From assembly GCA_963971575.1 (NCBI GenBank), contig OZ020622.1:30410301-30474300 (forward strand): a DNA stretch of 64,000 nucleotides, given 5' to 3'. Positions within the stretch are counted from its first letter, which is position 1, and the number at the start of each line of letters is the position of its first letter. This DNA comes from Liopterus haemorrhoidalis. Its lineage: Eukaryota; Arthropoda; Insecta; Coleoptera; Dytiscidae. The notes under the pieces are model-generated. The model was not told the DNA's origin. It did no database searches and worked only from the letters and a program-made list of their open reading frames with translations. Made by a program: the position numbers and the translations under genes. Of the stretch, positions 4,519-60,762 are shown piece by piece.

Positions 4519-4660
4519 TTTAAAATCGACCTCTAGACAAAAGCGTAATTTTATTTCTCTAGCCTTCCGATGGCTTTCTTTAGAAATCTTTTTTTTTTTT
4601 TTTTAATTTTACTCTCGGCTTAATTATAAATTCTACTTCGTACACAATATTCTAACTTTT

Positions 4661-4726
4661 ATTTCAACTCTTATTTTCAATTATTTCAACTCTCATTCTC
4701 AATTATTTCAATTCTTATTCTCAATT
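4661..4726 (-). repeat. Three 22-bp repeats between env1 and env2
   Basis: Three consecutive 22-base units, each ATTTCAA(C/T)TCT(T/C)ATT(T/C)TCAATT on the plus strand, fill part of the 349-base gap between the env1 stop and the env2 start. The same repeat block is present in the inverted copy (about 25381-25450), so it belongs to the element and is not a local expansion. A role as leader or splice-region spacer for env2 is only a guess. Confidence 0.7.
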
Positions 4727-4867
4727 ACTGAATACTTTAATCTTAACAACAACTACAGTTACCTTAACTGTAGATACCTAGGTATTCTTCACGGAAAATA
4801 GTTGACGTTGGGCCATCCGTCAACCAACTTCGGAAACCGCTTCTTGCGAGTCGTGTGAGGGAGTCAA

Positions 4868-7130
4868 CTATTCCGGGCTATGTTCCCGATCAACCCTTGT
4901 TCCGGATTTGGGTTGTCCGTGTCCAACCTTTATTATTTTTACAATATGGGTTGATCCGCCGTGGATCCTTAATGTGCCGAGTTTTTCGTGTGGTTCTTCG
5001 TCGTCCTCTTCTTCCCTTAGAGGTATTTCTTGTGATTCGTCTTTTTCTTGTCTTTGATTGTCCTCGCTATTGTTAGGGTTTGTGAATTGTTTGTTACTTC
5101 TCGACCTTCTTGTTAGTTTATATCCTCTGTAGATATTATAGAAGAGATATGTTATGACCAACAGAATGATTATCATTAGTGTTAGAATCAATGGTGTGTG
5201 GTCTGTTTTGCAAGCTATATTTGATTGTGCAAGCGGTATTATAGCTGTTGAAGCCATTGGTATTACCGCTGCTAGAGCTGGGGCTGCGTATACGGGGCGT
5301 CTGTTGTATATTATTTTAATAAGCATTATGGTTAGTATAGCGTTCCATATGAATAGAATTGTGTTGCTATGGTGTCCATAATGATCTGCATATGTTCTTG
5401 CGTTGTCTATTAAATCTGAAACTTCGTTGAATGTGTCGAATTTTGTTCTCTCCGTCGCTATTGATAAGTTTAGATGTGGGACATGAAATGTCCAATTTTT
5501 GTTTAGATATTCTGATAGATTTTTATATTCTGGATGTCTGTCTGTATCCGCCTTAAAATGAAGACTTTTCAGATTCGTCCAGGATGCTGGGATTACATGG
5601 ATTGTTTCCAATTCTTGAACAGCATTGTCAGCGCACGGAAGTCTTGCTGGTATTATCCTTCTATTTTCAACGTACAAAGAACAGTTACAGGGTAGTTTGA
5701 GTTGTAACGACCCAGGCTGTCCTATATATTTATCTTAAATTTTTATCTTTTTGTTCAGACATCTAATAAATGAGTCATTTTTGAGATGTGTTATCAAATA
5801 GGTGTCTTCGCTAATTTCGCTGATGACTAATGCTGTTGACGAGTGACATCTAAAACTGCAGTGTTGTCTCAGTTCTTCTACGGTGGCACCCAAGTACATT
5901 TTGAATGCACACAACGGACCATATGTGGCGTCTGTTGCAAATCTTATATTTAGCATATACTTATTACACTTAGTATATAGCAGAGTCTATCTTGGTAAGG
6001 TTTACATTGATGCAAACCAGCTCCTTGTATAGGTCTAGTGCTTGTACCGTCTTCTGCTAAGTACATATGATCGTGCATTAGTGTACACGTATAATGGTAC
6101 CAGGCGAAAGGTGTTGACTGAAGCTCTACTAGTTTCCAATTCTTCGTCACTTGAGTTATTGGTATTTTAATATGAACTGTTATTGTTTTCTGGCTAATTG
6201 CACAGTCAACTATTGGCAATTTATAATACCTCGAAATTTGATTTATAGGTACTGCTAACTTCATCCCAATTCTTTTCAGGTTCAAGGATAACTTTCTCAG
6301 GTCGGAATAGAGTACGGGGGGTGTTATTGTTGTAATAGGGATATTCTTGTTTTTGCAGGATGTTAGGATCTGGGTTTGTTTTAAGTAGGATAATATTTGA
6401 GCTGTTCTTTTGTAGCTGTTAGCTTTTGTCAGCATTATTTGTTTTGTTAACCATTTTGTGTCACTCTTTTCGTTGGCTATTTCTAGTCCAAGGTCTGGAA
6501 GTTCTTTGATTCTCGACTCAATTTGTTGAACTGTTTCCGTAACCTTTTTATCATATGTTTATAATCATCATGAAGTCCGAGTTTCAGTTTGTCTACTTGT
6601 TGTTGTAACTTATCATCCCTTACGACAATATCATCTACTTTCTCTTGTGTGGCTACCCCGCAGCACCAGTTGAAAGCATCTCCAATGAAATCTAATGCTC
6701 TCTTTTTTCTATACGCTTGCTCTTCTATCTCTTTTTCTTTTACTTCTCCGGTGTAACTGAAGGCCGCAGTAACATTTTCTGTTGTCATAATTATTAAGCT
6801 TGGGTCGAGTACGTTCTGAAATTCGTCTAGGGCCTTGACCGTTGAGAGGGAAAGGTCGCTGAGCTGCTCTGCCATGCTGCACTCCACTGAATCTAGTCCT
6901 GGGTCTGATGTATGAATTGTGTTTCGGTTTAATGGCTATTTGCAGAACCGTGCGGTGAAGGCATCTTCGTCTTCGGTATATCTTGGGGTTAACCAGGCGC
7001 CGCTGTACGTTAATGGAATAGAGGCCTCGTACCCCACTCTGTCTGGGAGTTTCTTCCAATACGCTCCTGCTACTATTTTGGTTGGGATCTCTGCGTGTAT
7101 GTGGGATGTAAGCAAGCACAGCAATAGCAA
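4868..7130 (-). pseudogene. env1: fusion-type envelope gene (broken)
   Basis: The start at 7130 gives a signal peptide (Leu-rich, cut near HAEIP). A basic cleavage motif RKKR is followed by the hydrophobic stretch ALDFIGDAFNWCCGVAT, like the furin site plus fusion peptide of baculovirus F and errantivirus envelopes. Cys-rich blocks follow, then membrane segments (about 5350-5100) and an acidic cytoplasmic tail. Breaks in this copy: a TAG at 6938-6936, a 29-base deletion near 6560 shifting the frame relative to the other copy, a short insertion near 5960, and a TAA at 5737-5735. It is placed downstream of pol as expected for a spliced env. This copy cannot make a full protein. Confidence 0.8.
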
Positions 7131-16264: not shown

Positions 16265-19200
16265 CTACTTCACATGTCAGATTAGTTCAAATCAGTGGGT
16301 GTGTCTCTATTGTATGTGCTATTGAATATATATAATATAAGTATTTATATAAAATATAATTAAATTGTGCTATACGTATAGATTCATCAACGCACGAGGT
16401 ACAATAATATATATACCTTAAAATCGTAAGTTATCATTACCTACTTTAAAGTTTATAAAAACATTTTTTAAATGCAATTTATTCCATATATATCGTTACA
16501 TAAATTGAAGGTCGTTAGAATTGTCACCGTGTTTTGTCCTGACATTCTCAGTGACGCTCGCGTTACCTTTCAACTCTGTTAAACGAGTATTAACATAATT
16601 TAAACGGTAGCGACATCTTACTATAGATCAACATAGTACATATTATCAAATAACTAAATAATATAGGATTTCTCTTGGCGCAATTTGGCGATTACCGACT
16701 TCGGGCTGAGTTCTGAACTGAGTAGGGGCTTGGTTTAACTGATGAGGTTAAGTCAAATTGTGCCTGTATCATCAAAATAATGCAAATAATAATTAATAAA
16801 TTAAAAAAATTAGATAAATTTAATAATATATTCTATAAATAAAAATAATTAATTCAAAACAAAGCACTGAAACTAATATAAAAATCCTGATGTCTAATAC
16901 TTGCTGCATATGCACGGGTACTGTCACCAGAAAATCTTCCGGTGTGCAGTGCTCTGGATCCTGTAAGAAGTATTATCACGCAAGGTGTGCGGATATAACT
17001 ACTGATGCATTGAAATACCTCACCAAAATCGTAGGTGCCCGATGGATTTGCATGGTTTGTCGTAAATCTAGGTCAAATGATTCGATTATTGTTGATCACG
17101 ACGGGTCATCCATAAATTTTGATAACAACTTCGCTATTATCCAGGCCATTGAAGATGTTAGAACCGATTTTAATAAAAAATATGAAGAATTAACTAGTAT
17201 GCTGACTGAGAGAAACAATACCATTACTGTGCGTAATATTTTTCAAGTTATTGAACAGCGTGATTGGAAAACTAAATGCATTGAAGATGTGTGGGTATCT
17301 CTTACACTGCCAGGTCAAAAATCAAAGCTCCATTTATGTTGTGTTTATCTACCTGACTATACTGATCGAGATAAATTTAAAAGTTTTGTTGATAACATTG
17401 TATCAATTATGCATAATAACGCTGAAGATAGTTTTATTATAGTTGGCGATTTTAATATGCCGAATATCAACTGGTCCTTAAAAAATAATGCAAGTTATGT
17501 AATCCCAACTTCACCTTCTGATTATAAATCATCCTTGCTCCTAGATAGTTTCTCCATAACAAATCTTATGCAGTTCAACAGTATTGTCAATAAAAATAAC
17601 AAAATTTTGGATTTAATATTGTGTAACGAGGAAAATATTAAAGTTGAGCCCTGCGAATGCCCGATAATCTGGGAAGATTTGCACCATAAAACGGTGAATT
17701 TTGTTTATAACCTAAAAGGCTCGATTATTTATCCAAAAGTAAATTTCTCAAAACGAGATTTCTCTAGAACAAATTTTGATGAATTAAACGCTATAATTAA
17801 GTCACAAAACTGGAATGAAATCTTGTCGGTTGGTAGTATAGATAATATTGTTAATAATTTTTACAACCTTATTAACTTAATTATTGATGAAAATGTGCCA
17901 GTTAAAATTAAAAAAGTAAGTAAATTCCCAGTTTGGTATAAAAAAAGTACAATAAAAATTTTCAATGAAAAAAATAAACTTCATAAAAAATGGAAATTAT
18001 ACAAGCAACCTTCTGACTATATCTCGTTTTATTTACGGCGCCGTAGATTAAAAAAAGCTATAAATGATGACTACCGTGATTGGATACGATCCACTGAAAC
18101 TAGTTTAAAAAACAATCCCAAAAAATTCTGGAATTATGTGTCTACTAAGAAATGCAGTTCCCGTATTCCTAATGACATGACTTTGGGTAACGAGCACGCT
18201 GATAACTATAGCGATATTTGCAACTTATTTAATGCATTCTTCCGATCAAATTTCGAACCTAGTACTGCAACTGCCACTGTAAATAATGGTCATAACTCAC
18301 CTCTTTCTGTTAATTTACAACATATTTTTAAATGTGATATTTTAGAATTATTAAAGTCTACTGATCTATCTAAAGGTCCTGGGCCAGATGGAATTTCACC
18401 TCATTTTGTTAAAAATTGTTCTGAGTCATTATGTGATCCCTTATATGTTATATTTAATAAATCTCTAAAAGAAGGTACTGTTCCCGATTTATGGAAACAA
18501 GCAATTGTAACACCAGTATTTAAAAATGGGTCCAATAATAATATTGAAAACTATCGGCCTATTTCTAAACTAAGTATTTTTGCAAAAATATTTGAAAATA
18601 TAATAACTAAATTTATATCTAATTCCATTAAATCAGTCATTATTCCGCAGCAACATGGATTTTGTGCAAAAAGATCAGTTATTTCAAATCTGTTACCTTA
18701 CGTTGAGTACTTGCACTCAAAGATGGACTCATCGGGCCAAGTTGACGTTATATGTACAGACTTTAAAAAAGCATTTGATAAGGTTAACCACAGTTTGCTT
18801 ATCTCCAAACTAATTTCTATTGGTATTCATGGAAACCTGTTACGCTGGATTACGTCTTACATAACAAATAGAATGCAAGCAGTGGCTATTAACAATTTTA
18901 CATCAAATTTCGTGCACATAACGTCTGGTGTGCCGCAAGGCTCTCATCTTGGCCCTGTTCTATTTGTCATATTTATTAACGACATAATTTCCTGTTTTAA
19001 ATATTCTAGATTCCTTCTCTATGCAGATGATGTGAAAATTTATAAAAGCATTGAATGCCTTCAAGACTCCTATGAATTAATGTCAGATCTGCATAATTTT
19101 TATATATATTTTCAAATTAATAAGCTCTTCCTAAATTTAGAAAAATGTAATTTCATCTCATTTACGAGAAAACATATTCCAATTCTTTGTAACTATTCAA

Positions 19201-20146
19201 TTGATGGTTCATCCCTTGTTAAATTAAATGTTGTAAAAGATCTTGGTGTTTATTTTGATAGTAAATTAAAATTCAATGTTCATGTAGATAAAATAGTAAC
19301 ATCCTCATTAAAAACACTCGGCTTCATATTACGTTCTTGTAAAGAATTCACTCAACCAGACAGTCTAATTCATTTATTTAAATCCCTCGTGTTGAGTCGT
19401 TTGGAATATGCAAGTATTGTATGGAACCCGTATTATAATATTTACAGTGACCGACTTGAATCAGTACAAAAACGATTTACTAAATATATGGATTATAAGT
19501 TTAATAAAAACAATTTAATATCTTATGATGATCGTTTGAAAAGATACAATTTAGTAAGTCTTGTAAATCGACGCAAGCAGATTGATTTGAACAATATTTA
19601 TAAAATTGTAAACAATATGATGGATTGTCCAGATATCTTGGAACTTATTAATTTTAACGTACCGTTAGTAAATACTAGGCGAAACAATACTTTTTATTAT
19701 AATAGCAGAAATACTAACGCGGGTAGAAACTCACCACTGAACAGAATAATGATTCTTTTTGATAAATATTTTAATAGTAGTGATATTTTTTTCCTATCGT
19801 TTTCACAGTTTAAATCTGAAATTAGATCCTTACTCCCTCAGTAACTGTCACTTGTACATTTCATTTCCTATTGATTTTTGTGAATATATATGTCTATTTT
19901 ATCTATTACTTTTATATCTGTTTTTTTCTCTCTCTCTTTGTATTATGTAATATATATAATATGTAATATATTTGTATTATGGCTTTCTGATGACTCCATG
20001 AAGTCAACTTTTGCTTTATATAAAGATTATATTTTGTATCTTGTACAATTTTGTAATGTGTGGGAATTTGTAGGAGACTTGTCTCTGTTTTATTCCCCGA
20101 ATAGAATAAAAATAAAAAATAAAAAAAATAAAATAAAACAAAAAAC
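16265..20146 (+). mobile_element. LINE B, internally deleted LINE nested in LINE A ORF1
   Basis: ORF1 of LINE A reads directly from 16263 to 20147 if this block is removed. The insert ends in an A-rich AAATA-type tail (about 20105-20145). It carries one 984-codon ORF at 16890-19844 and about 625 bases of 5' sequence without a supported gene. Only about 2 bases of possible target duplication are visible (AT). It belongs to the same general LINE group as A, with a similar RT and a PHD finger. Confidence 0.85.
16890..19844 (+). CDS. LINE B fused ORF1-ORF2 protein (PHD + partial endonuclease + RT)
   Basis: 984 codons, no break. Residues 1-65 are a PHD finger (CCICTGTV, CSGSCKKYYHARC, WICMVC). 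After about residue 112 it passes straight into the middle of an ORF2 endonuclease: RDWKTKCIEDVWVSLTL aligns with residues around 85 of LINE A ORF2. It includes GDFNMPNINW but lacks the N-terminal endonuclease part with the catalytic Asn/Glu (the LTETW region). RT follows with PGPDGIS, NYRPISKLS, DFKKAFDKVNH, GVPQGSHLGP and LYADD (about residue 712). An in-frame internal deletion has fused the two ORFs. It may be a one-off deletion or a mobile deletion derivative that uses another element's endonuclease. Confidence 0.88.
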   Translation: MSNTCCICTGTVTRKSSGVQCSGSCKKYYHARCADITTDALKYLTKIVGARWICMVCRKSRSNDSIIVDHDGSSINFDNNFAIIQAIEDVRTDFNKKYEELTSMLTERNNTITVRNIFQVIEQRDWKTKCIEDVWVSLTLPGQKSKLHLCCVYLPDYTDRDKFKSFVDNIVSIMHNNAEDSFIIVGDFNMPNINWSLKNNASYVIPTSPSDYKSSLLLDSFSITNLMQFNSIVNKNNKILDLILCNEENIKVEPCECPIIWEDLHHKTVNFVYNLKGSIIYPKVNFSKRDFSRTNFDELNAIIKSQNWNEILSVGSIDNIVNNFYNLINLIIDENVPVKIKKVSKFPVWYKKSTIKIFNEKNKLHKKWKLYKQPSDYISFYLRRRRLKKAINDDYRDWIRSTETSLKNNPKKFWNYVSTKKCSSRIPNDMTLGNEHADNYSDICNLFNAFFRSNFEPSTATATVNNGHNSPLSVNLQHIFKCDILELLKSTDLSKGPGPDGISPHFVKNCSESLCDPLYVIFNKSLKEGTVPDLWKQAIVTPVFKNGSNNNIENYRPISKLSIFAKIFENIITKFISNSIKSVIIPQQHGFCAKRSVISNLLPYVEYLHSKMDSSGQVDVICTDFKKAFDKVNHSLLISKLISIGIHGNLLRWITSYITNRMQAVAINNFTSNFVHITSGVPQGSHLGPVLFVIFINDIISCFKYSRFLLYADDVKIYKSIECLQDSYELMSDLHNFYIYFQINKLFLNLEKCNFISFTRKHIPILCNYSIDGSSLVKLNVVKDLGVYFDSKLKFNVHVDKIVTSSLKTLGFILRSCKEFTQPDSLIHLFKSLVLSRLEYASIVWNPYYNIYSDRLESVQKRFTKYMDYKFNKNNLISYDDRLKRYNLVSLVNRRKQIDLNNIYKIVNNMMDCPDILELINFNVPLVNTRRNNTFYYNSRNTNAGRNSPLNRIMILFDKYFNSSDIFFLSFSQFKSEIRSLLPQ

Positions 20147-20502: not shown

Positions 20503-23344
20503 ATGATAAGTGTTTATTACCAAAATGTTAGAGGTCTAAACACCAAAACTAATGAATTTTATCTGAATACTCTTCAGTCGGACTTTGATATTATTTGCCT
20601 CACTGAAACCTGGTTAAGTGATAATGTGCGTAGTGCGGAGCTTTTCGATGATCGCTATAATGTCTTTAGGCGTGATCGTACGAATGAAACATCTAATAAA
20701 GTGAGTGGCGGTGGTGCTTTAATAGCAATTCACAATAAATATAATGCTGTTCAGAATTATAATTGGAAATCAAATAATGAAGATTTGTGGATTACTTGTA
20801 CTCTAACTAGCTCTAAATTTAGGAAGTTACATATTTGTTGTGCCTATATTATACCAGGGGTTGACATATCACTTTTAAAAACGTTTAATGCAAGTTTAAT
20901 CAATGTATGCACTGATAATCCAGATGACGTTATATTAATTCTAGGAGATTTTAATCTCCCTAATATTACTTGGCTTAATTATGATAATTGTAACTTTTTA
21001 ACACCCTCCTTACCAAACGACGTAAAATCTGAGCAGTTTCTAGAAACAATGTCTCTCCTAAACTTACATCAATTTAACTTTTTAGTAAATAAAAACGATA
21101 GAATATTAGATTTGGTGCTATCGAATGAATCAATTCATGAAATCACTACTACTAATTCGCCGTTAATAAAAGAGGACGCACATCATAGAACAATAATTGC
21201 AAATCTAGATTACAATTCTTGTAACGTGTCTAAAAAGATTATCATTCCTAGTCACAATTTTTATAAAGCCAATTATGATATTATTAATAATAAATTAAGT
21301 TTGATAAACTGGAATGAGTTATTTAATAATGTTGATACTAACACCGCTGTTAAACTCTTATATGAAAATATTAATAACATAATATGTCAGAATATTCCCC
21401 TAAAAAAGAAAAATAATCATAAATACCCGTCGTGGTACAGAAAAATAACCATTCAACTTATTAATAAAAAAATAAAGGCACACAAAAAATGGAAACTTTA
21501 TAAAAATGTATCTGATTATTTACTATTTTGTAAACTTCGAAAAAATGTTAAATCACAAATTACAACGGATTATAAGACTTGGATTGATAATGTTCAAGAG
21601 AATGTCACTAAGGATACTAAATTTTTTTGGTCGTACGCTTCTAGTAAAAAAGGTAAAGGTTCCATCCCTGGTACCATGAAATATGAAGGCCACAGCCTTA
21701 ATAATATATCAGATATATGCAATAACTTCAACGAATATTTCCAAAAATCTTTTGAACCTACATCAAGTCAACAAAATCTCATTCCAAATCACAACTATAA
21801 TACTTCTATTAATTTAAATAAAATTTCTTCAGACAAAGTTCTCTCAACTTTGATGGATATAAATATAAACAAAGGTTGCGGCCCAGACGGCATACCACCT
21901 GTCTTTGTAAAGTCATGTATGAATGTCCTTTATCAACCTTTAGCTACTATTTTCAATAAGTCCCTTAATGAAGGCATTTTTCCCGAAAAATGGAAAAAAG
22001 CAATAATTACACCCGTTTTTAAAAGTGGTTCAGTAAATGAAATAAAAAATTATAGACCTATCTCCAAGCTATGCGTTTTCGGCAAAATTTTTGAAAAGAT
22101 TATATCAACCTTTTTAACTAACAACATAAAAAATCTTATAATTCCCGAACAACACGGTTTTTTTCCAAAAACGTTCAGTGATAACTAATCTGTTACCATA
22201 CACAGAATTTTTGTTCAATGCTATTGACGAACATGACCAAGTTGATGTAATTTTTACCGACTTTACTAAAGCATTCGACAAAGTCGATCATAATATCTTA
22301 ATTCACAAACTTATGAATTTCGGGATTCACGGCAATCTACTGAGATGGTTAATATCATATTTAAAAAATAGATCTCAAGCTGTTGCCATGAATAACTATA
22401 TATCATCTTATGTTCCAATAACCTCAGGTGTTCCACAGGGGGCCACCTGGCCGCCACCTTATTTATAATATTTGTTAATGATATCTCAAACTGTTTTCAT
22501 TTCTCAAATTTCATGCTTTACGCTGATGATTTAAAATGTTATCTCAAAATCAATTCCCTAGAAGATTGCCGTAATCTTCAAAGTGACCTTAATAGATTGA
22601 ACAATTATTGTATCAATAATAAATTATCTTTAAACATTAATAAATGTCATAAAATGACTTTCACACGAAAAATAAATAAATTAAGTTACGAATATACATT
22701 ATCAAATCAAATTTTATCTTGTGTGACTGAAATCAAAGATTTAGGCGTCATTTTTGACGCTAGGCCAAATTTGATATTCATGTTAACAATATTGTAAATA
22801 AAGCCTTCAAAATGTTAGGATTGTTATGAGGACTTGCAAACCATTCAATAAAATTGAAAGTATTCTATGTCTGTATCGGTCTTTCGTAGTTTCACAACTA
22901 GAGTATGCGAGTGTTATCTGGAATCCCAACTATAAAAATTTAAAAAATAGAATTGAAAGAATCCAAAAAACATTCTGCAAATTCCTTAATTATTAATTTA
23001 AAAACGTAAAAATTGAATACAATACAAGCTTAATAAATTTCAACATAATTAAACTAGAGCAGCGTAGATTAATTAATGATATTTTGACAGTATTTAAAGT
23101 AGTGAATAATTATTATGACAATACTGTTCTTATTCAATTTTTCAATATAAATGTTCCAACCTACAATAACAGGAATACTTTACAATTTTATAACATCAGA
23201 TGTAACACTGTCCTAGGTCAAAATTCACCCGTTTATAGAATATTGCACAGTTTTAATTCATATTGTCAAAGCTCACATGTCTTTTTCATGACTCTTCATG
23301 AATTTAAAAATGATGTATACAAATATGTACTATGTAATTGTTAA
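20503..23344 (+). pseudogene. LINE A ORF2: endonuclease-RT (frameshifted)
   Basis: Starts MISVYYQNVRGL. The endonuclease has LTETWL and GDFNLPNITW. RT has GPDGIPP, NYRPISKL, DFTKAFDKVDH, GVPQG and LYADD (22513-22530). The frame is broken near 22170, at 22460 (inside the GVPQG loop), near 22790, and a stop lies near 22994. The tail at 23084-23344 still matches the end of LINE B ORF2 (NSPVYRI, HEFKND). No functional protein is possible. Confidence 0.88.
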
Positions 23345-23523: not shown

Positions 23524-25241
23524 CAAGTAGACAAACTGAAACTCGGACTTCATGATGATTATAAACATTTAACAGAAGTAACCCACATTTCAATGAATAT
23601 GATAACAAGGTTACGGAAACAGTTCAAGAAATTGAGTCGAGAATCAAAGAACTACAAGACCTTGGACTAGAAATAGGCAACAAAAAGGTAACAAAACAAA
23701 TAATGCTGACAGAAGCCAACAGCTACAAAAGAACATCTCAAATACTATCCTACCTGAAACAAACCCAGATCCTAACGTCCTGCAAAAACAAGAATATCCC
23801 TATTACAACAATAACACCCCCCGTACTCTATTCCGACCTGAGAAAGTTATCCTTGAACCTGAAAAGAATTGGGATGAAGTTAGCAGTACCTATAAATCAA
23901 ATTTCGAGGTATTATAAGTTGCCAATAGTTGACTGTGCAATTAGCCAGAAAACAATAACAGTTCATGTTAAAATACCAATAACTCAAGTGACGAAGAATT
24001 GGAAACTAGTAGAGATTCAGTCAACACCTTTCGCCTGGTACAATGATACGTGTACACTAATGCACGATCATATGTACTTAGAAGTAGACGGTACAAGCGC
24101 TAGACCTGTACAAGGAGCTGGTTTGCAGCAATGTAAACCTTACCAAGATAGACTCTGCTATATACCAAGATTTGCAACAGACGCCACATATGGTCCGTTG
24201 TGTGCATTCAAAATGTACTTGGGTGCCACCGTAGAATAACTGAGACAACACTGCAGTTTTAGATGTCACTCCTCAACATAATTAGTCATCAGCGAAATTA
24301 GCGAAGACACCTATTTGATAACACATCTCAAAAATGACTCATTTATTAGATGTCCGAACAAAAAGATAAAAATTGAAGATAAATACATAGGACAGCCTGG
24401 GTCGTTACAACTCAAACTACCCTGTAACTGTTCTTTGTACGTTGAAAATAGAAGGATAATACCAGCAAGACTTCCGTGCGCTGACAATGCTGTTCAAGAA
24501 TTGGAAACAATCCATGTAATCCCAGCATCCTGGACGAATCTGAAAAGTCTTCATTTTAAAGCAGATACAGACAGACATCCAGAATATAAAAATCTATCAG
24601 AATGTCTAAACAAAAATTGGACATTTCATGTCCCACATCTAAACTTATCAATAGCGACGGAGAGAACAAAATTCGACACATTCAACGAAGTTTCAGATTT
24701 AATAGACAACGCAAGAACATATGCAGATCATTATGGACACCATAGCACAATTCTATTCATATGGAACGCTATACTAACCATAATGCTTATTAAAATAATA
24801 TACAACAGACGGCCCGTATACGCAGCCCCAGCTATAGCAGCGGCAATACCAATGGCTTCAACAGGTATAATACCGCTTGCACAATCAAATATAGCTTGCA
24901 AAACAGATCACACACCATTGATTCTAACACTAATGATAATCATTCTGTTGGTCACAGCATATCTCTTCTATAATATCTACAGAGGATATAAACTAACAAG
25001 AAGGTCGAGAAGTAACAAACAATTCACAAACCCTAACAAAAGCGAGGACAATCAAAGACAAGAAAAAGACGAATCACAAGAAATACCTCTAAGGGAAGAA
25101 GAGGACGACGAAGAACCACACGAAAAACTCGGCCCATTAAGGATCCACGACGGATCAACACATATTGTAAAAATAATAAAGGTTGGACACGGACAACCCA
25201 AATCCGGAACAAGGGTTGATCGGGAACATAGCCCGGAATAG
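23524..25241 (+). pseudogene. Inverted copy of env1, main part
   Basis: Continues env1 after LINE A. A region with DKLKLGLHDDY-like text is followed by the open stretch 23703-24239, a TAA at 24237-24239 and another stop near 24284, then 24315-25241 open to the natural stop. The membrane segments (about 24750-24990) and acidic tail match the minus-strand copy (4868-5677) almost residue for residue. It retains the 29 bases near 23570 that the minus copy lost. Confidence 0.85.
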
Positions 25242-51311: not shown

Positions 51312-52656
51312 TCAATAGCTGACGTGGAAGAATCAATAAATAAGTTGCTACCTAAAAGGTCCTACGGACCTGACCTAATACCTCCTTACATTTTGAAAGG
51401 ATGCATTGCAGCTTTTGTATTACCTTTACAAATAGTATTCAATTTGTCACTATCCACAAAAAAAATTCCTAATAAATGGAAATTAGCTCGTGTTTGTCCT
51501 ATTTTTAAAACGGGTGATAAACGTATATTCGAAAATTATAGGTCGGTTTCTATACTGTCATCTCCAGCGAAGGCGTTTGAACAAATCGTGTATAAATTTG
51601 TGTACGAACGAGTATCTTGTGTTATAACTCCATATCAGCATGGGTTCGTGGCATCCAAATCTACGGTAACAAATTTGATGCAAATAACAAATTTTATAGC
51701 TAACAATGATAACATAGATGATAACACAAACAGATGTCATTTATTTGGACATGAGCAAAGCATTTGACAGGATTAAACATGATTCAATTATAAGAAATTT
51801 GGAAAAATATGGTTTTTCGTTTAATCTTTGCAAGTGGTTTGTCTCCTATTTGGAAAACAGGTTTCAATATGTTGAATATGACATACATCAATCCATAACT
51901 TATCGTTTAATTACAGGTGTTCCGCAAGGATCTAACCTTGGGCCTCTACTCTTTCTTTTGACAGTCAATGAAATCACAAATTTACTAAAAAATTGCGATT
52001 GTTTAATGTTTGCAGATGATATAAAACTTTATAGAACAATATGTAATGCCAACGACTGTCAAATATTAGAGAAAAATATCTGTATATTAGAAACCTGGTG
52101 TCAAAACAATGGTTTGTGCTTTAATGCAAATAAATGCAAAATGATATCATTTTCAAGAAAAAAAGAAGTGCTCACATATCAATACAAAGTAAACAAACAG
52201 TCCATAGAAAGAGTAGATACTTTTAAAGATTTAGGAGTCCTCTTCGACTCTAAATTAACATTTCAACCTCATATTCATCATATTGTTCCCCAAGCATCCA
52301 AGAACCTTGGTTTTATACTACGAACGGGCTATGAGTTCAAAAATTGTAAAACCTATCTTCAGCTATTCAATGCTTTTGTCAGATCAAAACTGGAATATGC
52401 ATCTATAATATGGTCCCCATACCAAGCGAAATCCATAAATATAATAGAGAGAATTTAGACAAGAATGCTTAGAATGGTTGAATATAGGTTAACCAAGGTA
52501 TATCCCAAATATGTGTCAAGTGTAGATTTGCGGAATAAATATGAGGTTGTTACACTAGAGAAAAGACGTAATATATATAGTGTACTGTTTTTGCATAATA
52601 TTTTAAACAATAAAATTCATTGTTCAGACATCTTATCTGATATTAGTATACGTGTG
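51312..52656 (+). pseudogene. LINE D ORF2 RT (frameshift and nonsense)
   Basis: Starts mid-RT: YGPDLIPPYILKGC, NYRSVSILSS, then after a frameshift near 51730 DMSKAFDRIKHD, GVPQGSNLGPL and MFADD (52009-52023), then DLGVLFDSKLTF. A TAG at 52456-52458 interrupts the same frame. After the errantivirus the C-terminus resumes at 60355-60546 with SMRVRNNIF and RMLSLFNQL. Jockey/CR1-type RT, non-functional. Confidence 0.88.
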
Positions 52657-53032
52657 AGTTATGTATATCCTAATATTTAACTAACGAATAGATGCTCTTA
52701 TTCTATGTTTATATAGCGGCAATGGTCACACTAACAAAGGTCCATTCATTCATACATTGTAATACAAAATATGATAATTTAATATTAGAACCTTATCTAT
52801 AACAAAATTGCTAATTAAGGAGTTTTTACTGTAAAAATGACATCATTGATATAACAAAGATGCTTATTGTATTATATTGTTAAATCAGCATAAAACCTGT
52901 ATAAAAACCCTATGCAATAGAGTTTCACCGAGTTCTATTTTGTAAATGAACCTGTGTAGTTCAGAATATTTAATCTTCTTATTTGAAATAAAGTTTTTTA
53001 AAAACAAATAAATCTTTGCAATTTATTTAATT
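52657..53032 (+). repeat. 5' LTR of the errantivirus
   Basis: Contains TATAAAAA (52900-52907), then TTTCACCGAGTT about 25 bases downstream as the likely start region, and AATAAA (52987-52992) as polyadenylation signal. U3, R and U5 can therefore be assigned roughly. Partner at 59975-60350. Confidence 0.93.
52900..52940 (+). promoter_or_regulatory. LTR core promoter
   Basis: TATAAAAA at 52900-52907 with AGAGTTTCACCGAGTT downstream. Position within the LTR and downstream polyadenylation signal fit a retroelement RNA polymerase II promoter. Predicted from sequence only. Confidence 0.6.
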
Positions 53033-53050
53033 GGCGCAGTCGGTAGGATA
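53032..53050 (+). promoter_or_regulatory. Primer binding site, tRNA-Ser type
   Basis: TGGCGCAGTCGGTAGGATA starts at the last LTR base. This is the primer site described for errantiviruses such as 17.6, 297 and ZAM, complementary to the 3' end of a serine tRNA. It supports placing this element in that lineage. Confidence 0.85.
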
Positions 53051-53167
53051 CGTAAACAGTGTTTTAGACCGAAAACTCAAAAATTAAAAGTTTGAGTTTA
53101 ATTCGTTAAAGTCATCACTGTTCCGTTTCTACGGTTTATTACGGTCCATAAACGTTATAAGAAGAAA

Positions 53168-53352
53168 CCTACAGAGCCGCTATACGCAGTGCCAAGGAAA
53201 AGTACCTACAGAGCCGCTAAACGCAGTGCCAAGGGAAGTAACCTACAGAGTCGCTAAACGCAGTACCAAGGGAAAGAAACTACAGAGCCGCTAAACGCAG
53301 TGCCCAGGGGAAGATCCTACAGAGCCGCTAAACGCAGTGCCCAGGTCTTCAC
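53168..53352 (+). repeat. Five 37-bp repeats in the errantivirus leader
   Basis: CCTACAGAGCCGCTAAACGC recurs at 53168, 53205, 53242, 53279 and 53316, exactly 37 bases apart with few changes. It lies between primer site and gag, GC-richer than its surroundings. The Drosophila gypsy leader holds tandem insulator-protein sites at the same place. The unit here does not look like the Su(Hw) site, so any insulator or packaging role is inference. A 70-codon frame across it (53300-53512) is probably a repeat artefact. Confidence 0.88.
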
Positions 53353-53621
53353 ATCATCAAATTCAAGAACTCCACGACACAGAGCGCGCAGTGCGAGTGC
53401 CAGTCAACCCGGTGAGCCTGAACGTCAAGAGCCGTATCAGCATCACCTAGCCTGCCAGAATCAAGTGTTCAAGTGTTACAAATGTATTTCACCACGCTAT
53501 TGGCAAGCATAATTTTACTGTAAGTAATTATTAATATTTTTTGTAATAAATATTCAATCTGGAGAATAATTCAGAATTATTAGAAATAGTATCAGAAATA
53601 GAAAATAATCTCAACGTCACA

Positions 53622-54665
53622 ATGGCTGAAAGAATTCAGAAAATTAACTTTGCATTAAAATCAATTCCGGAATATAATGGAGACCCAAATAAATTAAGTA
53701 ATTTTATTAATACTGTAAACTCAGTTCAGTCTCTCTTCTGCACTATCACTCCACCTTTGGATGATTTTGATAAAGCAATAACATTTTTAAATATTAAAAA
53801 TAAAGTAACTGGACGCGCTTTAGACAGTATTAAAGATCTAGAATTAAATAGCTGGGACGGATTACGTTCGCATCTAATAAATACTTTTAAAGATAAAACA
53901 AATTCAGTGACCATAATAAATGAATTATTAAAAATACAAAACATCAAAAGTCCATATAAACTATTAGAAATAACTAAAGAAAAATTCCTTAGTTTTAAAT
54001 CGAGAATTGGTATTGAAGAAATGGATCCAAACGTAAAATTAATAATGATCAAGTTTGCTGAAAACTTAGTGGTAAACAATTTCATTTCAACCATCAATGA
54101 CCCATACAGAAATAATCTAGCTACCAGAAATCCACAAACAATAGATGAGATAGAAATATTAATGGAAAATGATTTCCAATATTTAAAATTCAACACTAAT
54201 CTTAATATAAAACCTTCTATTACCAAACAATTACCACACATTCCACCCCAAAAATTTCCAGGAACAAGTTTTCCTACTGGACCAATAAATTTCCAGCAGA
54301 AAAATAATACTAATCAAAATTTTGTTCCTAGACAACGAGTTAAAAATGCCCAATATATTAAACCTACGCCCATGACCATACAGACTAAACAAACATTTCA
54401 ACCTAAACAAAATTTCTCGGGACAAAATAACTATTTTACACATCAAAATAAACAATTTGGGATACAGAAACCAAATTACATAGCAGAAGAAATTAATAAC
54501 ACGGAAACTTTCGATGAAAATCGGTATTCGGAAGATCAAAATTTTAGTAATGAATATAATTACTATCCGGAAGAAGATTTAGAAATCGGGATCGAACAAG
54601 ACGAAAATGTTACGGAACAAAATTCTTTTTTAGAGATTCCCCCAGATATTCAGGAGAGCTCTTGA
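53622..54665 (+). CDS. Errantivirus Gag
   Basis: 347 codons, intact, from the ATG in a CACAATGGCTG context. It forms the particle shell around the element RNA. The N-terminal half (ALKSIPEYNGDPNKLSNFI... and ITFLNIKNKVTGRALDSIK) matches the capsid region of gypsy/17.6-type Gag. The C-terminal half is Asn/Gln/Pro-rich with an acidic end. There is no CCHC zinc knuckle, which is normal for this lineage. The end overlaps pol, which lies in the -1 frame. Confidence 0.88.
   Translation: MAERIQKINFALKSIPEYNGDPNKLSNFINTVNSVQSLFCTITPPLDDFDKAITFLNIKNKVTGRALDSIKDLELNSWDGLRSHLINTFKDKTNSVTIINELLKIQNIKSPYKLLEITKEKFLSFKSRIGIEEMDPNVKLIMIKFAENLVVNNFISTINDPYRNNLATRNPQTIDEIEILMENDFQYLKFNTNLNIKPSITKQLPHIPPQKFPGTSFPTGPINFQQKNNTNQNFVPRQRVKNAQYIKPTPMTIQTKQTFQPKQNFSGQNNYFTHQNKQFGIQKPNYIAEEINNTETFDENRYSEDQNFSNEYNYYPEEDLEIGIEQDENVTEQNSFLEIPPDIQESS
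54626..54632 (+). promoter_or_regulatory. -1 ribosomal frameshift site T TTT TTA
   Basis: In Gag frame the codons read TCT TTT TTA, so the heptamer T TTT TTA is in the correct phase for X XXY YYZ slippage, the same heptamer used by some retroviruses. The -1 frame is open from here into pol with no stop, and the gag stop (TGA, 54663-54665) follows 31 bases downstream. This would give a Gag-Pol fusion. I did not confirm a downstream RNA structure. Confidence 0.75.
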
Positions 54666-57600
54666 GTATGTTTCAGAGTTCCCGACTACCGTTTCTAAAA
54701 TTTAAAGATTATTATATGTTGATTGACACAGGTTCCACGATAAATTTAATAAGTAAAACATATGTTTATAATAATTTACAAAAATTCAAAATTTACAAAG
54801 AAAAATTTAATTTTAAAACACCAATAGGTGAACATACTGGTGACGAATATATAATTTTACAGTTTGAAAATAGAGATTTAAAATTTTATTTACATGATTT
54901 TCATAAAGATTTTAATTTGTTGTTGAGTTTACCAACAATGACTGAAATGCAAGCTAAAATAGATCTTAGTAAAAATTTAATTACGATCCAAAATAAAAAT
55001 TATAAGATACAATATTTTAAAAATCAAGTAGTTGATAACACAGTTAACAACACAGAACAAATTAAAGTTAGAGCAGAACATTTAAATTCGGAAGAAAAGA
55101 AAGAACTTCATAAATTAATAAAAGAATATCAAAGTATTTTTCCCAATGAAAAAGATGCATTAACATACACAGACGTTATTCAACATAAAATAATTACTAA
55201 AGATGACACCCCCATATACACTAAGCCGTACCGATATCCTGAAATATATAAAAATGAAATTAATAAACAAGTTGAAGACATGCTAGATAGTAAAATTATC
55301 CAAGAAAGTCATACACCTTGGTCATCACCTGTTTGGATGGTTCCTAAAAAATTAGATGCCTCAGGCAAACGAAAATTTAGAATGGTTATTGACTATCGGA
55401 AACTTAATGCAAAAACTATAGACGATAAATTCCCAATCCCAAATATTACCGACGTTTTAGATAAATTAGGAAAGAATATATATTAAACTGCACTAGATTT
55501 AACCTCAGGTTTCCATCAGATTCAGATGCATCCTGACTCCATTCCTAAAACAGCTTTTAGTACTGACAAAGGCCATTTTGAATTTACAAGAATGCCATTT
55601 GGTCTCAAAAATGCCCCATCTACCTTCCAAAGATTAATGAATTATATATTAAAAGATTATATAAATAAAATATGTCTAGTATATTTAGATGATATCATAA
55701 TATTAGGAACGTCTTTGCAAGAACATTGTGAAAACATACGGAAAGTATTTTCTAAATTACAAAAATATAACTTAAAAATTCAATTGGACAAGTCAGAGTT
55801 CATGCGTAAAGAGATAGCTTATCTAGGCCATATAGTGTCGAAAGACGGTGTAAAACCAAACCCTGCAAAAATTGAAGCCGTTAAAAATTTTCCTATCCCA
55901 AAAACCCAAAAAGAAATAAAACAATTTTTAGGACTTTTAGGTTATTACAGAAAATTTGTTCCAAATTTTGCTAAATTAACTAAATCAATGACTACATGCT
56001 TGAAGAAAGGACATATAGTAAATATAGAAAATAAAGAATATAAACAAAGCTTTGAGGATAGTAAAAAATTATTAATTAACGCACAAATATTACAGTATCC
56101 TGATTTTGAAAAACAATTTATTGTTACAACTGATGCAAGTAATTTTGCCATTGGTGCAGTTTTAAGCCAAAACATTAATGGGAAAGACATGCCCATAGCC
56201 TATGCGTCTCGTACATTAAATGATCACGAAATTAATTATAGCACTACAGAAAAAGAATTACTTGGTATAGTTTGGTCAGTAAAATACTTTAGACCCTACC
56301 TTTACGGTACCAAATTCATAATACGAACCGATCACCGACCCTTAACGTGGTTAATGAGCCTAAAAGACCCAAATTCAAAACTAATGAGATGGCGTATAAA
56401 ATTAGACGAATATAGCTATGAAATAGAATATAAAAAGGGAACACTAAACTCTAATGCCGATGCACTCTCAAGAATAAGACCTAAATTTCAAATCTTTAAA
56501 ACCAATGATGATATTTTTAGTAAACCGCAAAATTTAGTACATTCCATTTCACGGGATCTAAAACTAGGAAAAGGATTTGCTAAACAAATAGATGAAAAAT
56601 TTAATAGCAAAAACTATTTTATGAATAATGGTAATAAAACTCAAGATTTATTAATCCAACCTATTTATGAGAATAAATATAAGATATTTCACTTAATAAC
56701 TAAACAAGAATTTTTTAATAAACCCACATTAGAAAATATACAAAATTGTTTAATTCAGTTGAAAAATTTCCTAATCCAAAATGATATTTTCGAAATCCAT
56801 ATGCCCAAAATTTGTTCAGGTTTAGATAAAATTCCGTTTCAAAAGGTTGAAAATTTATTAAATGATATTTTTAAAGAAACCCATATTAAAATAGTAATTC
56901 ATGAATTAACACAAGAAGAAATAAACATGAATGATGAAACCGAAAGCATGATTGGTAATGTATATGTAGAAGATTTAGATACAGTACATTCCGCAGACGA
57001 AAATGAATTGAATGGAATAACTTACAAAGACTCTTGTATCAATGTAGGTAAAAATCAAATTATAATTCAAAAACACAACCGAGAAACAGAGTGTCAGTTG
57101 ACAAAACCTTTTGGCAATAAACAAAGATTAACTATTCAATTAAATGAAAATCACCTAGAAAACGAAATTTTTAAATTCTTAAAAGATTATGTAGTACCAC
57201 GCATAAATTATTATTGTTTAATTGACAGGGATCTGATAATCCCAATAAATAATGTTTTACAAAATAATTTCAATAAAGAAACGTACAGATTAATTCAATG
57301 CGAAGAGGTTTTAGAAGACAAATTAATAACTGAAGATCAAATAGAAACTATTCAAACTTACCATCTAGGAAAAACTAACCACAGAGGAATTTTGGAAACA
57401 TATCAAAAATTAAAACGAAAATTTTATTGGCCCAATATGTTCATGGATATACAAAAATATATTAACAATTGTGACATATGTCAACAAAATAAATATGAAC
57501 GAAATCCTTACCAAATCCCTGATAATCTTACGCAAAATCCTAAATTCCCCTTTGATATTCTACATATTGACACATTAACCCTAGAGAACCAGAAATATTT

Positions 57601-58369
57601 AACGGTAATAGATGCTTTTTCTAAATTCGCTCAGTTATTATACGTTAAAACACTTTCTGCAATAGACATTACTAACGGACTTATAAAATACTTTTCACAA
57701 TACCAAATCCCTAACGAAATAACTTTTGACAGTGGAACTGAATTTAATAATAATTTGGTAAAATATTTACTAAAATCATATAATATCAAAATCCATATGA
57801 CATGCGTTGATAACCCTAAATCAAACGGACTTATTGAAAGATTCCATTCCACAATAATCGAACATTTGAGAATTTTAAACCAACGACAGCATTTTAAAGA
57901 ACAGAATAATTTTAAAAAAATACAACTGTCCTTAATAGCTTACAATAATTCAATAAACTCAGTTACTAAATACACTCCTAATGAGATACTTTTTGGTTCA
58001 GAAAAGGATAACGAAATTTTGAAATTTAAAGATTGTAGCGAAGACTATTTGCAAGAATGGCAATATAAACTCAGATTATTAAAAGAAAAAGTGTATAAAA
58101 ATATTGAAACCGAAAAGAATAAAAGATTCTCAAAACAAAAACCGTCTAACAAAAATTTAGATAATCTAAAATTAGACACTGTACTAATTAAAGAAGGTAA
58201 AAGAAGAATACAAAAAATCAAAAAACCACTATTTAAAATTCACAAAGTTGAAAACTATAACCCCAAACTTGGAACTATAAAAATAAATCCAAATAAAAGA
58301 CATAAAATTGACAAAATAAAAAGAAAACGTCTCTTTGTTGCAGATGCTCCTGCAAAGGAGAAGAATTAA
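54662..58369 (+). CDS. Errantivirus Pol (PR-RT-RNase H-macrodomain-IN), one in-frame stop
   Basis: 1235 codons in one frame, read from gag by -1 slippage; first ATG in frame is at 54668. The enzyme set copies the RNA and integrates the DNA. Protease: LIDTGST (about residue 21). RT: PWSSPVW, MVIDYRKLN, RMPFGLKNAP and VYLDDIII (about residue 343). RNase H: TTDASNFAIGA, RTDHRPLTW, NADALSR. Macrodomain: residues about 610-755. Integrase: zinc-binding HLGKTNH ... CDICQQNK (about 900-940) and catalytic Asp970, Asp1023, Glu1059 (D,D-35-E). Codon 275 (55484-55486) is TAA just before the ALDLTSGFHQ block of RT, so this copy is presumably inactive unless the base is an error or is read through. About 150-180 codons longer than usual errantivirus Pol, explained by the macrodomain. 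Confidence 0.93.
56490..56925 (+). other. Macrodomain (TARG1/OARD1-like) inside Pol
   Basis: After the RNase H end (DALSRIR) comes NDDIFSKP, LVHSISRDLKLGKGFAKQ, FHLITKQEFFNKPTLENIQ and MPKICSGLDKIPFQKV, then IKIVIHEL. These match in order the KGDLF, H.(V)S.D...G.GIA, Y(L)(V/I)TK...KPT and P.(I).CGLD..(W)..V blocks of TARG1-type macrodomains, which bind ADP-ribose and remove it from acidic side chains. The TARG1 catalytic pair is Lys84 and Asp125, 41 apart. Here Lys681 (56702-56704) and Asp722 (56825-56827) are also 41 apart. Activity is predicted, not shown. Confidence 0.9.
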
Positions 58370-59943
58370 CCGAATTAACGGACAATCCCGGCTTAAATAT
58401 AATAGATTTAGGACAAGTAAATATATATAAAAACTCATATTACTCTTATTATAATTATAAAATAAGTAATTTGGAATTAGAATATAATAAAATAAAAACT
58501 TATAAAAATGAAATTTTATTAAAATTAAATAGCGATAAAGCCGCGAAATATAATTACAAAAGAGAAATAGAGACATATATAAACATTTTAAATTTTAATA
58601 TGTCAAGACTAAAAAGTAAAATTAACAATTTGTTTCAAAATAAACGCAATAAACGAGGACTAGTAAACGGATTAGGAACGATTATTAAAAGTATTACCGG
58701 AAATTTAGATTCAGAAGACGCTGAAAAATATGAGAAATTATTTGAAAAAATACAACAAAATCAACATATTTTACAAGATCAGAATTTAGAGAATATACGA
58801 GTTAATAAAGAAATGATTTCAAAATTTAATAAACAAATTGAAAATATTAAGCATAATGAAATGATATTAAAATCACGAATAATGCAAACAGATACCATAA
58901 TTGAAAAAGTCATGAACTGGGAAAATATCTCTAGACTTAAAGATATTTTTAACCAACTGATTTTATTAAGTATAAATTTAATTGAAATTCTAGATGAAAT
59001 CGAAACAAGCTTAACTTTCTGTAACTTGAATAAAATCCATAGCTCAATAATTACAAAGGAAGAATTGAATAAAATAGTTAAAGAAGCAAATCAGAATTCA
59101 AATTTTTGGGAATTAACTACACTAATTACCAGTCATTGTAAAGTTGATAAAGATCAGATTGAATATTTACTAGATATACCTGTATATTATAATAACGAAA
59201 ACAGTAAACTATTGCAAATAACTCCAATACCCAATATCAACAAAAATCAAATGTTTGCCATAAATGAAGAAAAGAAGTTGTTAATTTTAAGCCAAGATAA
59301 ATTATTTAATACACATGATTGTAATGAAATAAATGTTAATCATTTTTGTAAAACCAATTATATAGAAACCAATGATTGTATTAAAAATGTTGTTTTAAAT
59401 CGTAATAACGAGGGATGTGAATATCACACAATTAATGATGCCTTTTTAATTATAAAAATAGAAAATGAAAATCTAGCAATAATAGCTAGCACCATAAACA
59501 GAGTTGTCGAAGTAAAATGTAAAGATAAAATCAAACATCAACAGATTAAAGGTGTCTATAAATTCAGAACTAATGAAAATTGTAAAATAGATAATTATGA
59601 TTTAGAAAGTAAATTGACAAAAGCGAAAGAAATAATTTTTGAAAAAATAGCTTTTAACATTGAGGAAAATCAAATTAGTAACAGTACTTTAGAATTAAAG
59701 CAAATAGATAAGGAAAATGTTATTATTAAAGAAACTCCAAGAATAGATGAAACAATAGTAAAAAATGATTATCATGGTCATATTAACTCTTTTGTAATAA
59801 TTGTATTAACCATTATCATATATTTATATATAATTTATAGAAATAAGGATAGATTAAAATGTAAAAGGGACTCTACATCAAATCAAAAAACAGAATCTTT
59901 AGAATTAGAAAATTTGGAAACTCAGAATAGAATTCCTTTTTGA
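58312..59943 (+). CDS. Errantivirus Env (baculovirus-F type), open
   Basis: Open frame ending at 59943, overlapping the pol end in another frame. No good ATG lies at the start, and CTTTGTTGCAG at 58333-58343 is a strong splice acceptor candidate, so env is probably made from a spliced RNA with its start supplied upstream, as in gypsy. The furin-type motif RNKR, with GLVNGLGTIIKSITGNLD immediately after it (about 58645-58705), is the hallmark of baculovirus-F/errantivirus fusion proteins. A coiled-coil region, Cys-rich ectodomain, membrane span (SFVIIVLTIIIYLYIIY, about 59790-59840) and short tail follow. No stop or frameshift seen. Confidence 0.88.
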   Translation, partial: QNKKKTSLCCRCSCKGEELTELTDNPGLNIIDLGQVNIYKNSYYSYYNYKISNLELEYNKIKTYKNEILLKLNSDKAAKYNYKREIETYINILNFNMSRLKSKINNLFQNKRNKRGLVNGLGTIIKSITGNLDSEDAEKYEKLFEKIQQNQHILQDQNLENIRVNKEMISKFNKQIENIKHNEMILKSRIMQTDTIIEKVMNWENISRLKDIFNQLILLSINLIEILDEIETSLTFCNLNKIHSSIITKEELNKIVKEANQNSNFWELTTLITSHCKVDKDQIEYLLDIPVYYNNENSKLLQITPIPNINKNQMFAINEEKKLLILSQDKLFNTHDCNEINVNHFCKTNYIETNDCIKNVVLNRNNEGCEYHTINDAFLIIKIENENLAIIASTINRVVEVKCKDKIKHQQIKGVYKFRTNENCKIDNYDLESKLTKAKEIIFEKIAFNIEENQISNSTLELKQIDKENVIIKETPRIDETIVKNDYHGHINSFVIIVLTIIIYLYIIYRNKDRLKCKRDSTSNQKTESLELENLETQNRIPF

Positions 59944-59962
59944 AAGAATAAGATCATCTTTT

Positions 59963-59974
59963 AAAGAAGGGAAG
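59963..59974 (+). promoter_or_regulatory. Polypurine tract of the errantivirus
   Basis: AAAGAAGGGAAG directly precedes the 3' LTR start AGTTATG. Perfect purine run in the expected place for plus-strand priming, 20 bases after the env stop. Confidence 0.88.
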
Positions 59975-60350
59975 AGTTATGTATATCCTAATATTTAACT
60001 AATGAATAGATGCTCTTATTCTATGTTTATATAGCGGCAATGGTCACACTAACAAAGGTCCATTCATTCATACATTGTAATACAAAATATGATAATTTAA
60101 TATTAGAACCTTATCTATAACAAAATTGCTAATTAAGGAGTTTTTACTGTAAAAATGACATCATTGATATAACAAAGATGCTTATTGTATTATATTGTTA
60201 AATCAGCATAAAACCTGTATAAAAACCCTATGCAATAGAGTTTCACCGAGTTCTATTTTGTAAATGAACCTGTGTAGTTCAGAATATTTAATCTTCTTAT
60301 TTGAAATAAAGTTTTTTAAAAACAAATAAATCTTTGCAATTTATTTAATT
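59975..60350 (+). repeat. 3' LTR of the errantivirus
   Basis: 376 bases; one difference from 52657-53032 seen by eye. TATA at about 60218, AATAAA at about 60305. Followed by TGTG target duplicate and resumed LINE D coding sequence. Confidence 0.93.
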
Positions 60351-60762
60351 TGTGCCATTAGTTAGCATGAGAGTTAGAAATAATATTTTTTTATGTAACA
60401 AATTCAGTACAGATTATGAACAAATGACTCCTGTACCTCGTATGTTAAGCTTATTCAATCAACTCCTAATGTATGATATGGACATAGATATTTTCAATAT
60501 AACGTATGTTGCCTTAAAAAAAAGGATGATTGAAATTTTACCCTAAATAATTTTGATTTTGTTATTTATTTTTATTGCCTTTGGTATCTTTTATTTGTAT
60601 ATCTCTATCTTATCTTTGTGTGTATGTAAATTGTATGTGATGAGGATAATTTGATTGTAATACTTGTATTTCTCTTTTTTTTATTATTATTTTTCTCTGT
60701 ATACAGACACATATAGGACTTATGTCTGTTGTGTCGTTATTTTCAAATAAATAAATAAATAA

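Follow-up and report, generated by a model that had tools for sequence, protein, structure and literature searches.

A TARG1-type macrodomain within the Pol polyprotein of a beetle errantivirus and of related Ty3/gypsy elements

The stretch of DNA analysed here (the window) comprises 64,000 nucleotides from the beetle Liopterus haemorrhoidalis (Coleoptera, Dytiscidae; GenBank assembly GCA_963971575.1, contig OZ020622.1, positions 30,410,301 to 30,474,300 of the forward strand). From 52657 to 60350 it holds an errantivirus, that is, a Ty3/gypsy long terminal repeat (LTR) retrotransposon with an env frame, in which gag, pol and env are each represented by a frame. Between the RNase H and the integrase zinc finger of its pol frame lies an extra block of 146 codons, free of stops, in which an earlier note on this DNA had recognised the motifs of TARG1/OARD1 macrodomains. 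Profile, sequence and fold comparisons all bear this out and point specifically to TARG1, so that the assignment of the block as a TARG1-type macrodomain is close to certain.

A phmmer search of the block (residues numbered from 56489) against all PDB sequences matched human TARG1/OARD1 (C6orf130, terminal ADP-ribose protein glycohydrolase) as five distinct sequences, with E-values of 4e-20 to 6e-20 over residues 6-139, and the sole other match within an E-value of 10 stood at 1.2. TARG1 likewise filled the top 8 rows of the Foldseek search and the top 6 rows of the VIA search. A chance resemblance to a macrodomain is ruled out by these sequence and fold matches. Human TARG1, a free protein, is ∼30% identical to the block, which is part of a retroelement polyprotein. 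Lys72 (56702-56704, in LITKQ) and Asp113 (56825-56827, in CSGLDKI) align with the catalytic K84 and D125 of TARG1 and lie 41 residues apart, the same spacing that the relevant section of PMC6397177 gives for TARG1 and that the earlier note had counted (its numbering, Lys681 and Asp722, runs from a TTG at 54662, whereas the pol frame opens at 54560). H18 and S21 align with H32 and S35, to which the same section assigns roles in the distal-ribose loop.

The Pfam Macro profile matched the block with an E-value of 2.8e-4 and 21.3 bits, just below the gathering cut-off of 22, and annotation based on cut-offs therefore misses it. The pattern TKx(30,35)Px[IL]GxGxD, published in the part of PMC6397177 that defines it, fails in the window at its first Gly, the GxG loop of TARG1 being CxG here, and for this reason we name the block a TARG1-type variant and not a canonical TARG1; the place of TARG1 Y150 is taken by His. 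The macrodomain of the DarG antitoxin is more distant (16-18% identity, and absent from the sequence matches at E≤10), and its bacterial toxin-antitoxin setting is unlike a retroelement Pol. A structural model of RNase H, macrodomain and tether (predicted local distance difference test score, pLDDT, 81; predicted template-modelling score, pTM, 0.50) places macrodomain secondary structure directly after RNase H, with the low pTM leaving the mutual arrangement of the three parts unfixed.

The element around the block has the LTRs and short target-site duplication of an errantivirus (Table 1). Because its two 376-bp LTRs differ by one mismatch and are flanked by a TGTG duplication, the insertion is young. 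The order protease, reverse transcriptase (RT), RNase H, integrase is present in Pol, with RVT_1 matched and with the protease (RVP_2, 17.2 bits, E 0.0046; cut-off 20.3) and the integrase core below their Pfam cut-offs. The pol frame overlaps gag in a different frame, and the window copy's pol is broken by one in-frame stop at 55484-55486, which falls within RT and outside the macrodomain block. No Pfam match was found in the gag frame, and the env frame gave no env-type Pfam match, including none to the baculovirus F type; the env of the sister family L148 matched Baculo_F (PF12259) at 26.8 bits, above the cut-off. In the RT tree, P0002 and other close relatives form a 15-row clade with Lampyris noctiluca errantivirus 1 (P0015). 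The likely primer-binding site presumably resembles the tRNA-Ser type of other errantiviruses. A tandem array of a 37-nt unit occupies 53161-53345, between the 5′ LTR and gag, and the tether was modelled as strand-strand-strand-helix-strand-helix-strand, an order that recalls the RNase H-like fold. Elsewhere in the window, near-identical frames with hydrophobic segments at 4868-5677 (−) and 24315-25241 (+) are, by eye, probably env gene ends from another retroelement, and frames at 9756-12701, 16890-19844, 20503-22188 and 51324-52458 look like non-LTR retrotransposons from their endonuclease and RT motifs.

Table 1. Features of the errantivirus, in window coordinates.
Feature	Position	Strand	Basis or remark
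Target-site duplication TGTG, left copy	52653..52656	.	Letters read; same four bases 3′ of the 3′ LTR
5′ LTR, 376 bp	52657..53032	+	Against 3′ LTR, 1 mismatch in 377 aligned positions, one flank base included
Likely primer-binding site adjoining 5′ LTR	53033..53049	+	Letters read
gag frame, first ATG 53622	53550..54665	+	Open frame
pol frame (protease, RT, RNase H, macrodomain, tether, integrase)	54560..58369	+	Frame with one in-frame stop; Pfam matches
RNase H	56102..56413	+	PF17917, 141 bits
TARG1-type macrodomain block	56489..56926	+	Domain proper ∼56492-56908
H18 and S21, distal-ribose loop	56540..56551	+	Aligned with TARG1 H32, S35
T71-K72	56699..56704	+	Aligned with TARG1 T83 and catalytic K84
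P106 to D113, phosphate loop	56804..56827	+	First Gly is Cys109; D113 aligned with catalytic D125
Flexible linker, macrodomain to tether	56909..57007	+	pLDDT <50, residues 273-305 of 436-residue model
Errantivirus tether, begins at HSADEN motif	56981..57298	+	Common to macrodomain-less relatives, by eye
Integrase H2C2 zinc-binding domain	57344..57496	+	PF17921, Integrase_H2C2, 60 bits
Integrase core (rve)	57548..57817	+	PF00665, E 1.4e-6, 28.9 bits; cut-off 32.6
env frame	58312..59943	+	Open frame
Purine tract 5′ of 3′ LTR	59963..59974	+	Letters read
3′ LTR, 376 bp	59975..60350	+	LTR alignment
Target-site duplication TGTG, right copy	60351..60354	.	Letters read

The distribution of the domain was determined in 120 listed Pol relatives of the 169 above threshold. 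It lies between RNase H and integrase in 21 of them, among which the Pol of Lampyris noctiluca errantivirus 1 carries it in the same clade as the window; the other 99 gave no match. The integrase zinc finger lies 289-327 residues from DALSR, where RNase H ends, in rows with the domain and 147-260 residues from it in rows without (correctly parsed rows only; P0067, P0071, P0086 and P0088 were mis-parsed, and some rows have no spacing). Seventeen rows were read by eye, 5 with the domain and 12 without: the latter have a variable, low-complexity and often acidic linker from DALSR to the HSxEEN motif, and the tether that follows HSxEEN is found in both sets. Counted from the first residue of DALSR, the domain begins ∼11 residues on in the window clade and ∼32 residues on in P0022. 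The TED virus of Trichoplusia ni (P0088) shares with the window and with Lampyris noctiluca errantivirus 1 the order RT-RNase H-tether-integrase, lacks a domain match and has a variable linker in its place. Neither of the two results that the earlier note had named as refuting it was obtained: a macrodomain profile did match the block, if just below its cut-off, and the block is not a generic errantivirus tether. The 99 relatives lacking a match, the linker reading, a tether seen with and without the domain, and sequence and fold matches that both lead to TARG1 rule out such a tether with a spurious likeness to macrodomains, leaving the idea next to no probability.

Elements with the domain in other places, and elements with other enzymes, also occur. 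In P0007, which comes from outside the source genome, the domain lies 5′ of RT. By eye, an OTU-like block (GDGDCGAHAL ... HW) precedes it at residues ∼130-250, with no Pfam match at E 0.01. In the errantivirus-like Pol of P0059, a Ulp1/C48 SUMO-protease (PF02902, 113 bits) follows integrase at residues 1255-1431 and is another captured modifier-removing enzyme.

The source genome (1.02 Gb, 91 contigs) was searched with the block, and 150 of 378 candidates were scored. At least 37 of these rows are at least 88% identical to the block, the window and two short fragments included, and window-family copies with longer pol frames than that of the window exist. Nineteen other matches in the genome passed the Macro gathering score, part of them probably host gene exons. 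We took 18 own-genome stretches and read the domain order in their frames as they stand. L148 and L149 have the order of the window, as do L154, L155, L157 and L158, in which the domain is farther from RNase H. L150-L153 instead run macrodomain-RT-RNase H-integrase; two subfamilies, L150 and L152, were tested for a protease, and both have one ahead of the macrodomain. A relaxed pattern that includes the Lys and Asp fits each of the 18 stretches (a single family accounts for several of them); the strict published pattern is present in 5 of the 18 (L152, L153, L157, L158 and L163, the last perhaps a host gene) and in 2 of 23 element domains (P0016 and P0022). In L163, a frame of 456 codons at 3462-4829 is RG-rich in its first half and encodes a TARG1-like domain that shares 51% identity with human TARG1; no domain typical of transposons was found in this frame, and it is a possible candidate for the host TARG1 gene. 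The earlier note was right that a retroelement has a macrodomain captured in Pol, but the domain is not private to the window element: its presence throughout a clade that includes P0015, and in further genome copies, rules out a capture by the window element alone.

Conservation was assessed in a window clade of 21 rows (P0001 included, P0022 excluded). Nineteen of these rows have both K72 and D113. The conservation of H18, S21, T71, K72 and D113 was exceeded by 4 of 20,000 random five-position sets, and by 0 of 20,000 once the two degenerate rows were removed, while the 16 ligand-contact positions were better conserved than all 20,000 random sets. The ratio of nonsynonymous to synonymous substitution rates (dN/dS) was sought for nine element-family pairs and was computable for the domain in four: 0.14 for window-L148, 0.08 for L154-L161, 0.09 for L156-L161, and 0.19 for L152-L150, the last being rough since its dS was 3.2. 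In the remaining five pairs dS was saturated, the proportions of nonsynonymous (pN) and synonymous (pS) differences being 0.13-0.29 and 0.76-0.84. For window-L148, integrase had a pN of 0.19 and a pS of 0.84, and the RT part 0.12 and 0.82; the macrodomain is constrained about as much as integrase and less than RT. Twelve window-family copies, the window among them, were chosen at 100% protein identity, so their absence of replacements is no evidence and was unused. The length variation and low-complexity look of the linkers in domain-less relatives would suit a neutral passenger lodged in an insertion-tolerant linker. With dN/dS of 0.08-0.19 between families, a conserved active site, and the same enzyme type at different positions in Pol, we regard such a passenger as very improbable.

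The number of captures was read from RT trees. Without own-genome rows (116 rows) the tree has two changes of domain state, and with 126 rows it has four, all forced by well-supported branches; when P0007, P0122 and P0106 are removed, four changes remain, two of them forced. Long branches join L158 with L150-L153. Two acquisitions are firm and four are likely, the count depending on the sample. In the macrodomain trees the window clade forms one group (support 100/99 in two trees, 100/98 with 32 chosen rows), on a long branch near animal TARG1 and bacterial and phage TARG1-like proteins in a tree with 45 of 56 non-redundant bacterial/phage rows and without P0014, P0019 and P0021. In the 32-row tree the L150 family (protease-macrodomain-RT) adjoins the window clade with support 92/78, so the domain may have been captured once and have changed its place in Pol afterwards; P0022, P0007, L152 and L163 have no firm placement there, nor do the deep branches. 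Placing P0022 with the errantivirus clade by constraint was weakly rejected (approximately unbiased test, p = 0.0446). P0022 and L152 are 45% and 50% identical to human TARG1.

The trees do not settle the donor, both animal TARG1 and bacterial or phage TARG1-like proteins appearing near. A protein search with P0001, under a length limit that shuts out Pol-length proteins, had none of its 14 candidates reach E≤0.01 and revealed no closely related free-standing protein, and P0001 found no match in viral contigs. An alignment-based search yielded 79 viral and 48 bacterial loci, all 127 of which match the macrodomain profile; because no RT match was found in the retrieved stretches, they serve as an outgroup only. 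In these loci (L001-L127), TARG1-like macrodomains occur as small separate open reading frames in phage-like contigs, Paenibacillus, Clostridia and others.

Some families of the source genome have kept the macrodomain and lost RT. In L156 and L165 a 474-codon macrodomain frame stands between frames of 442 and 550 codons, in the places of gag and env, and the front part of L156 scores 20.2 bits with RVP_2 (cut-off 20.3). Aligned with the full Pol of L154, L156 retains three blocks (the protease region, the macrodomain plus adjoining sequence, and the C-terminal tail) and is missing RT-RNase H and integrase. The frame of L162 encodes macrodomain and integrase but no RT, and at its front it can be aligned with the L156 protease region; codons 4-453 of L156 and 1-444 of L162 are 60% identical in an alignment that runs across the point where RT was deleted, suggesting that both derive from a single loss of RT. 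Of the pol parts compared between these two families, the macrodomain is the most conserved (85% identity, dN/dS 0.08), ahead of the protease (69%, dS saturated), the linker (44%, dN/dS 0.44) and the tails (45% by blastp; a global alignment giving 22% probably pairs unlike parts and was unused). The 474-codon frame was read in 11 rows (L156, L165, L166-L174), all of which have the Lys and Asp 41 residues apart. Variable codons among these copies comprise 4 replacement and 8 silent in the macrodomain against 38 replacement and 17 silent in protease, linker and tail, a difference that reaches only p = 0.044 by Fisher's test. The LTR pairs of RT-less units (L156, L165 and L162) are 99.1-99.6% identical. 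The domain thus seems to be retained while the polymerase is supplied by others.

We consider that the captured domain is best explained, and probably so, as an ADP-ribosyl hydrolase that travels in the particle and reverses ADP-ribosylation by the host. The fold, the active-site residues, purifying selection, the occurrence in several Pol lineages and the retention in RT-less families support this explanation. Proteins encoded inside Pol are delivered in the particle together with RT and integrase, and it is from this position only that we infer packaging and the stage of replication. Made as part of Gag-Pol, the domain would enter the particle beside RT and integrase and could there strip host-placed ADP-ribose from the element's own proteins or from its nucleic acids or complementary DNA; alternatively, its substrates could be host proteins present where reverse transcription or integration takes place. 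Hydrolysis would proceed through a lysyl-ADP-ribose intermediate, as in TARG1 biochemistry, and the benefit would presumably be escape from host ADP-ribosylation. Catalytic activity is quite likely; a role in counter-defence is plausible. An enzyme of this type might also act on small molecules such as O-acetyl-ADP-ribose, ADP-ribose-1″-phosphate or host-immunity signals of the cyclic ADP-ribose type, since macro domains can process soluble ADP-ribose derivatives and the phage versions are argued, in a section of PMC9503650, to prefer them. A location inside Pol suggests local action, however, and we think such substrates rather doubtful.

Several points weigh against the hydrolase explanation. 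P0014 and P0019, 2 of the 21 clade rows, have lost both catalytic residues, and the activity is therefore not indispensable everywhere. In the GxG phosphate loop, 18 of the 21 rows have Cys or Ser at the position of the first Gly, the window having Cys. The 11 RT-less copies were chosen by frame length, so that the intact frame is itself no finding; 3 further rows that look to be of the same family, outside the 11 read, have shorter frames of 443, 303 and 258 codons, and recombination with RT-bearing kin can weaken the argument from these families. Finally, a section of PMC10221186 states that most of the vertebrate PARPs are absent from insects and that alphaviruses specific to insects have no macrodomain activity. 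With few insect PARPs the obvious antagonist is missing; candidate targets are then PARP1, tankyrase or an unrecognised transferase, and a simple copy of the vertebrate story is disfavoured.

The two degenerate rows, which keep a domain of fold length, would fit a different function, namely that of an ADP-ribose reader in which catalysis is secondary and the integration complex is tethered to PARP-marked chromatin or DNA ends; the position ahead of integrase, with a flexible linker behind the domain, suits this too. But all of the other 19 rows keep the catalytic pair unchanged, and the pair also occurs in families that have the domain between protease and RT, at a distance from integrase; the family lacking both RT and integrase retains the domain too. 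A reader is accordingly unlikely, if a little less so than an enzyme for small molecules, and we prefer the ADP-ribosyl hydrolase.

No report of an errantivirus macrodomain was found in a literature search that excluded bioRxiv preprints and most subscription journals. By title and start of abstract, papers on macrodomains together with LTR retrotransposons concerned only LSH/macroH2A and histone topics, and the wider literature contained no such retroelement macrodomain among the matches listed. The paper on Lampyris noctiluca errantivirus 1 (PMC7093385) does not have 'macro' in its text, and its section on that frame reports RT/RNase H and integrase with no mention of a macrodomain; a paper on insect endogenous retroviruses (PMC12992720) contains neither 'macro' nor 'ADP-ribos'. 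PMC9503650 screened 21,191 viral proteomes for nicotinamide adenine dinucleotide (NAD) and ADP-ribose domains, and its main text contains none of 'errantivir', 'metavir', 'retrotranspos' and 'ortervirales'. Macro scores for the window, P0022 and P0015 are below the Pfam cut-off or absent, and Macro is absent from the precomputed Pfam lists of all 120 listed relatives; the domain may have been overlooked for this reason.

Viral macrodomains have so far been known from RNA viruses and phages, and the present domain is a retroelement version. Many macrodomains of animal RNA viruses (alphavirus nsP3, coronavirus nsp3, rubella virus, and Kadipiro virus, thrips and virga-like proteins) likewise lie in or beside the replication polyprotein. 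They are thought to reverse host ADP-ribosylation, as stated in a section of PMC9503650. Kadipiro virus VP8 and proteins of thrips, virga-like and negev-like viruses were among the first viral matches to the block, by fold only, which suggests that such macrodomains recur in arthropod viruses. The presence of the domain in several Pol lineages and its retention in RT-less satellites suggest that ADP-ribosylation restricts reverse-transcribing elements. A broader proposal, to which we give somewhat less than an even chance, is that TARG1-type domains were taken up several times by the Ty3/gypsy elements of one animal genome, at two positions in Pol, because reverse transcription or integration is the target of a defence by ADP-ribosylation and each element must carry its own eraser, so that satellites losing RT and then integrase keep it under the strongest selection in pol. 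This would be the counterpart of the RNA-virus macrodomain arms race and would point to a hitherto unrecognised host defence based on an ADP-ribosyltransferase. The suggested restriction would, if the hosts are insects, act where PARPs are few, and the TARG1-like relatives in other element families of the same genome hint at an ADP-ribosylation defence that these elements have had to overcome.
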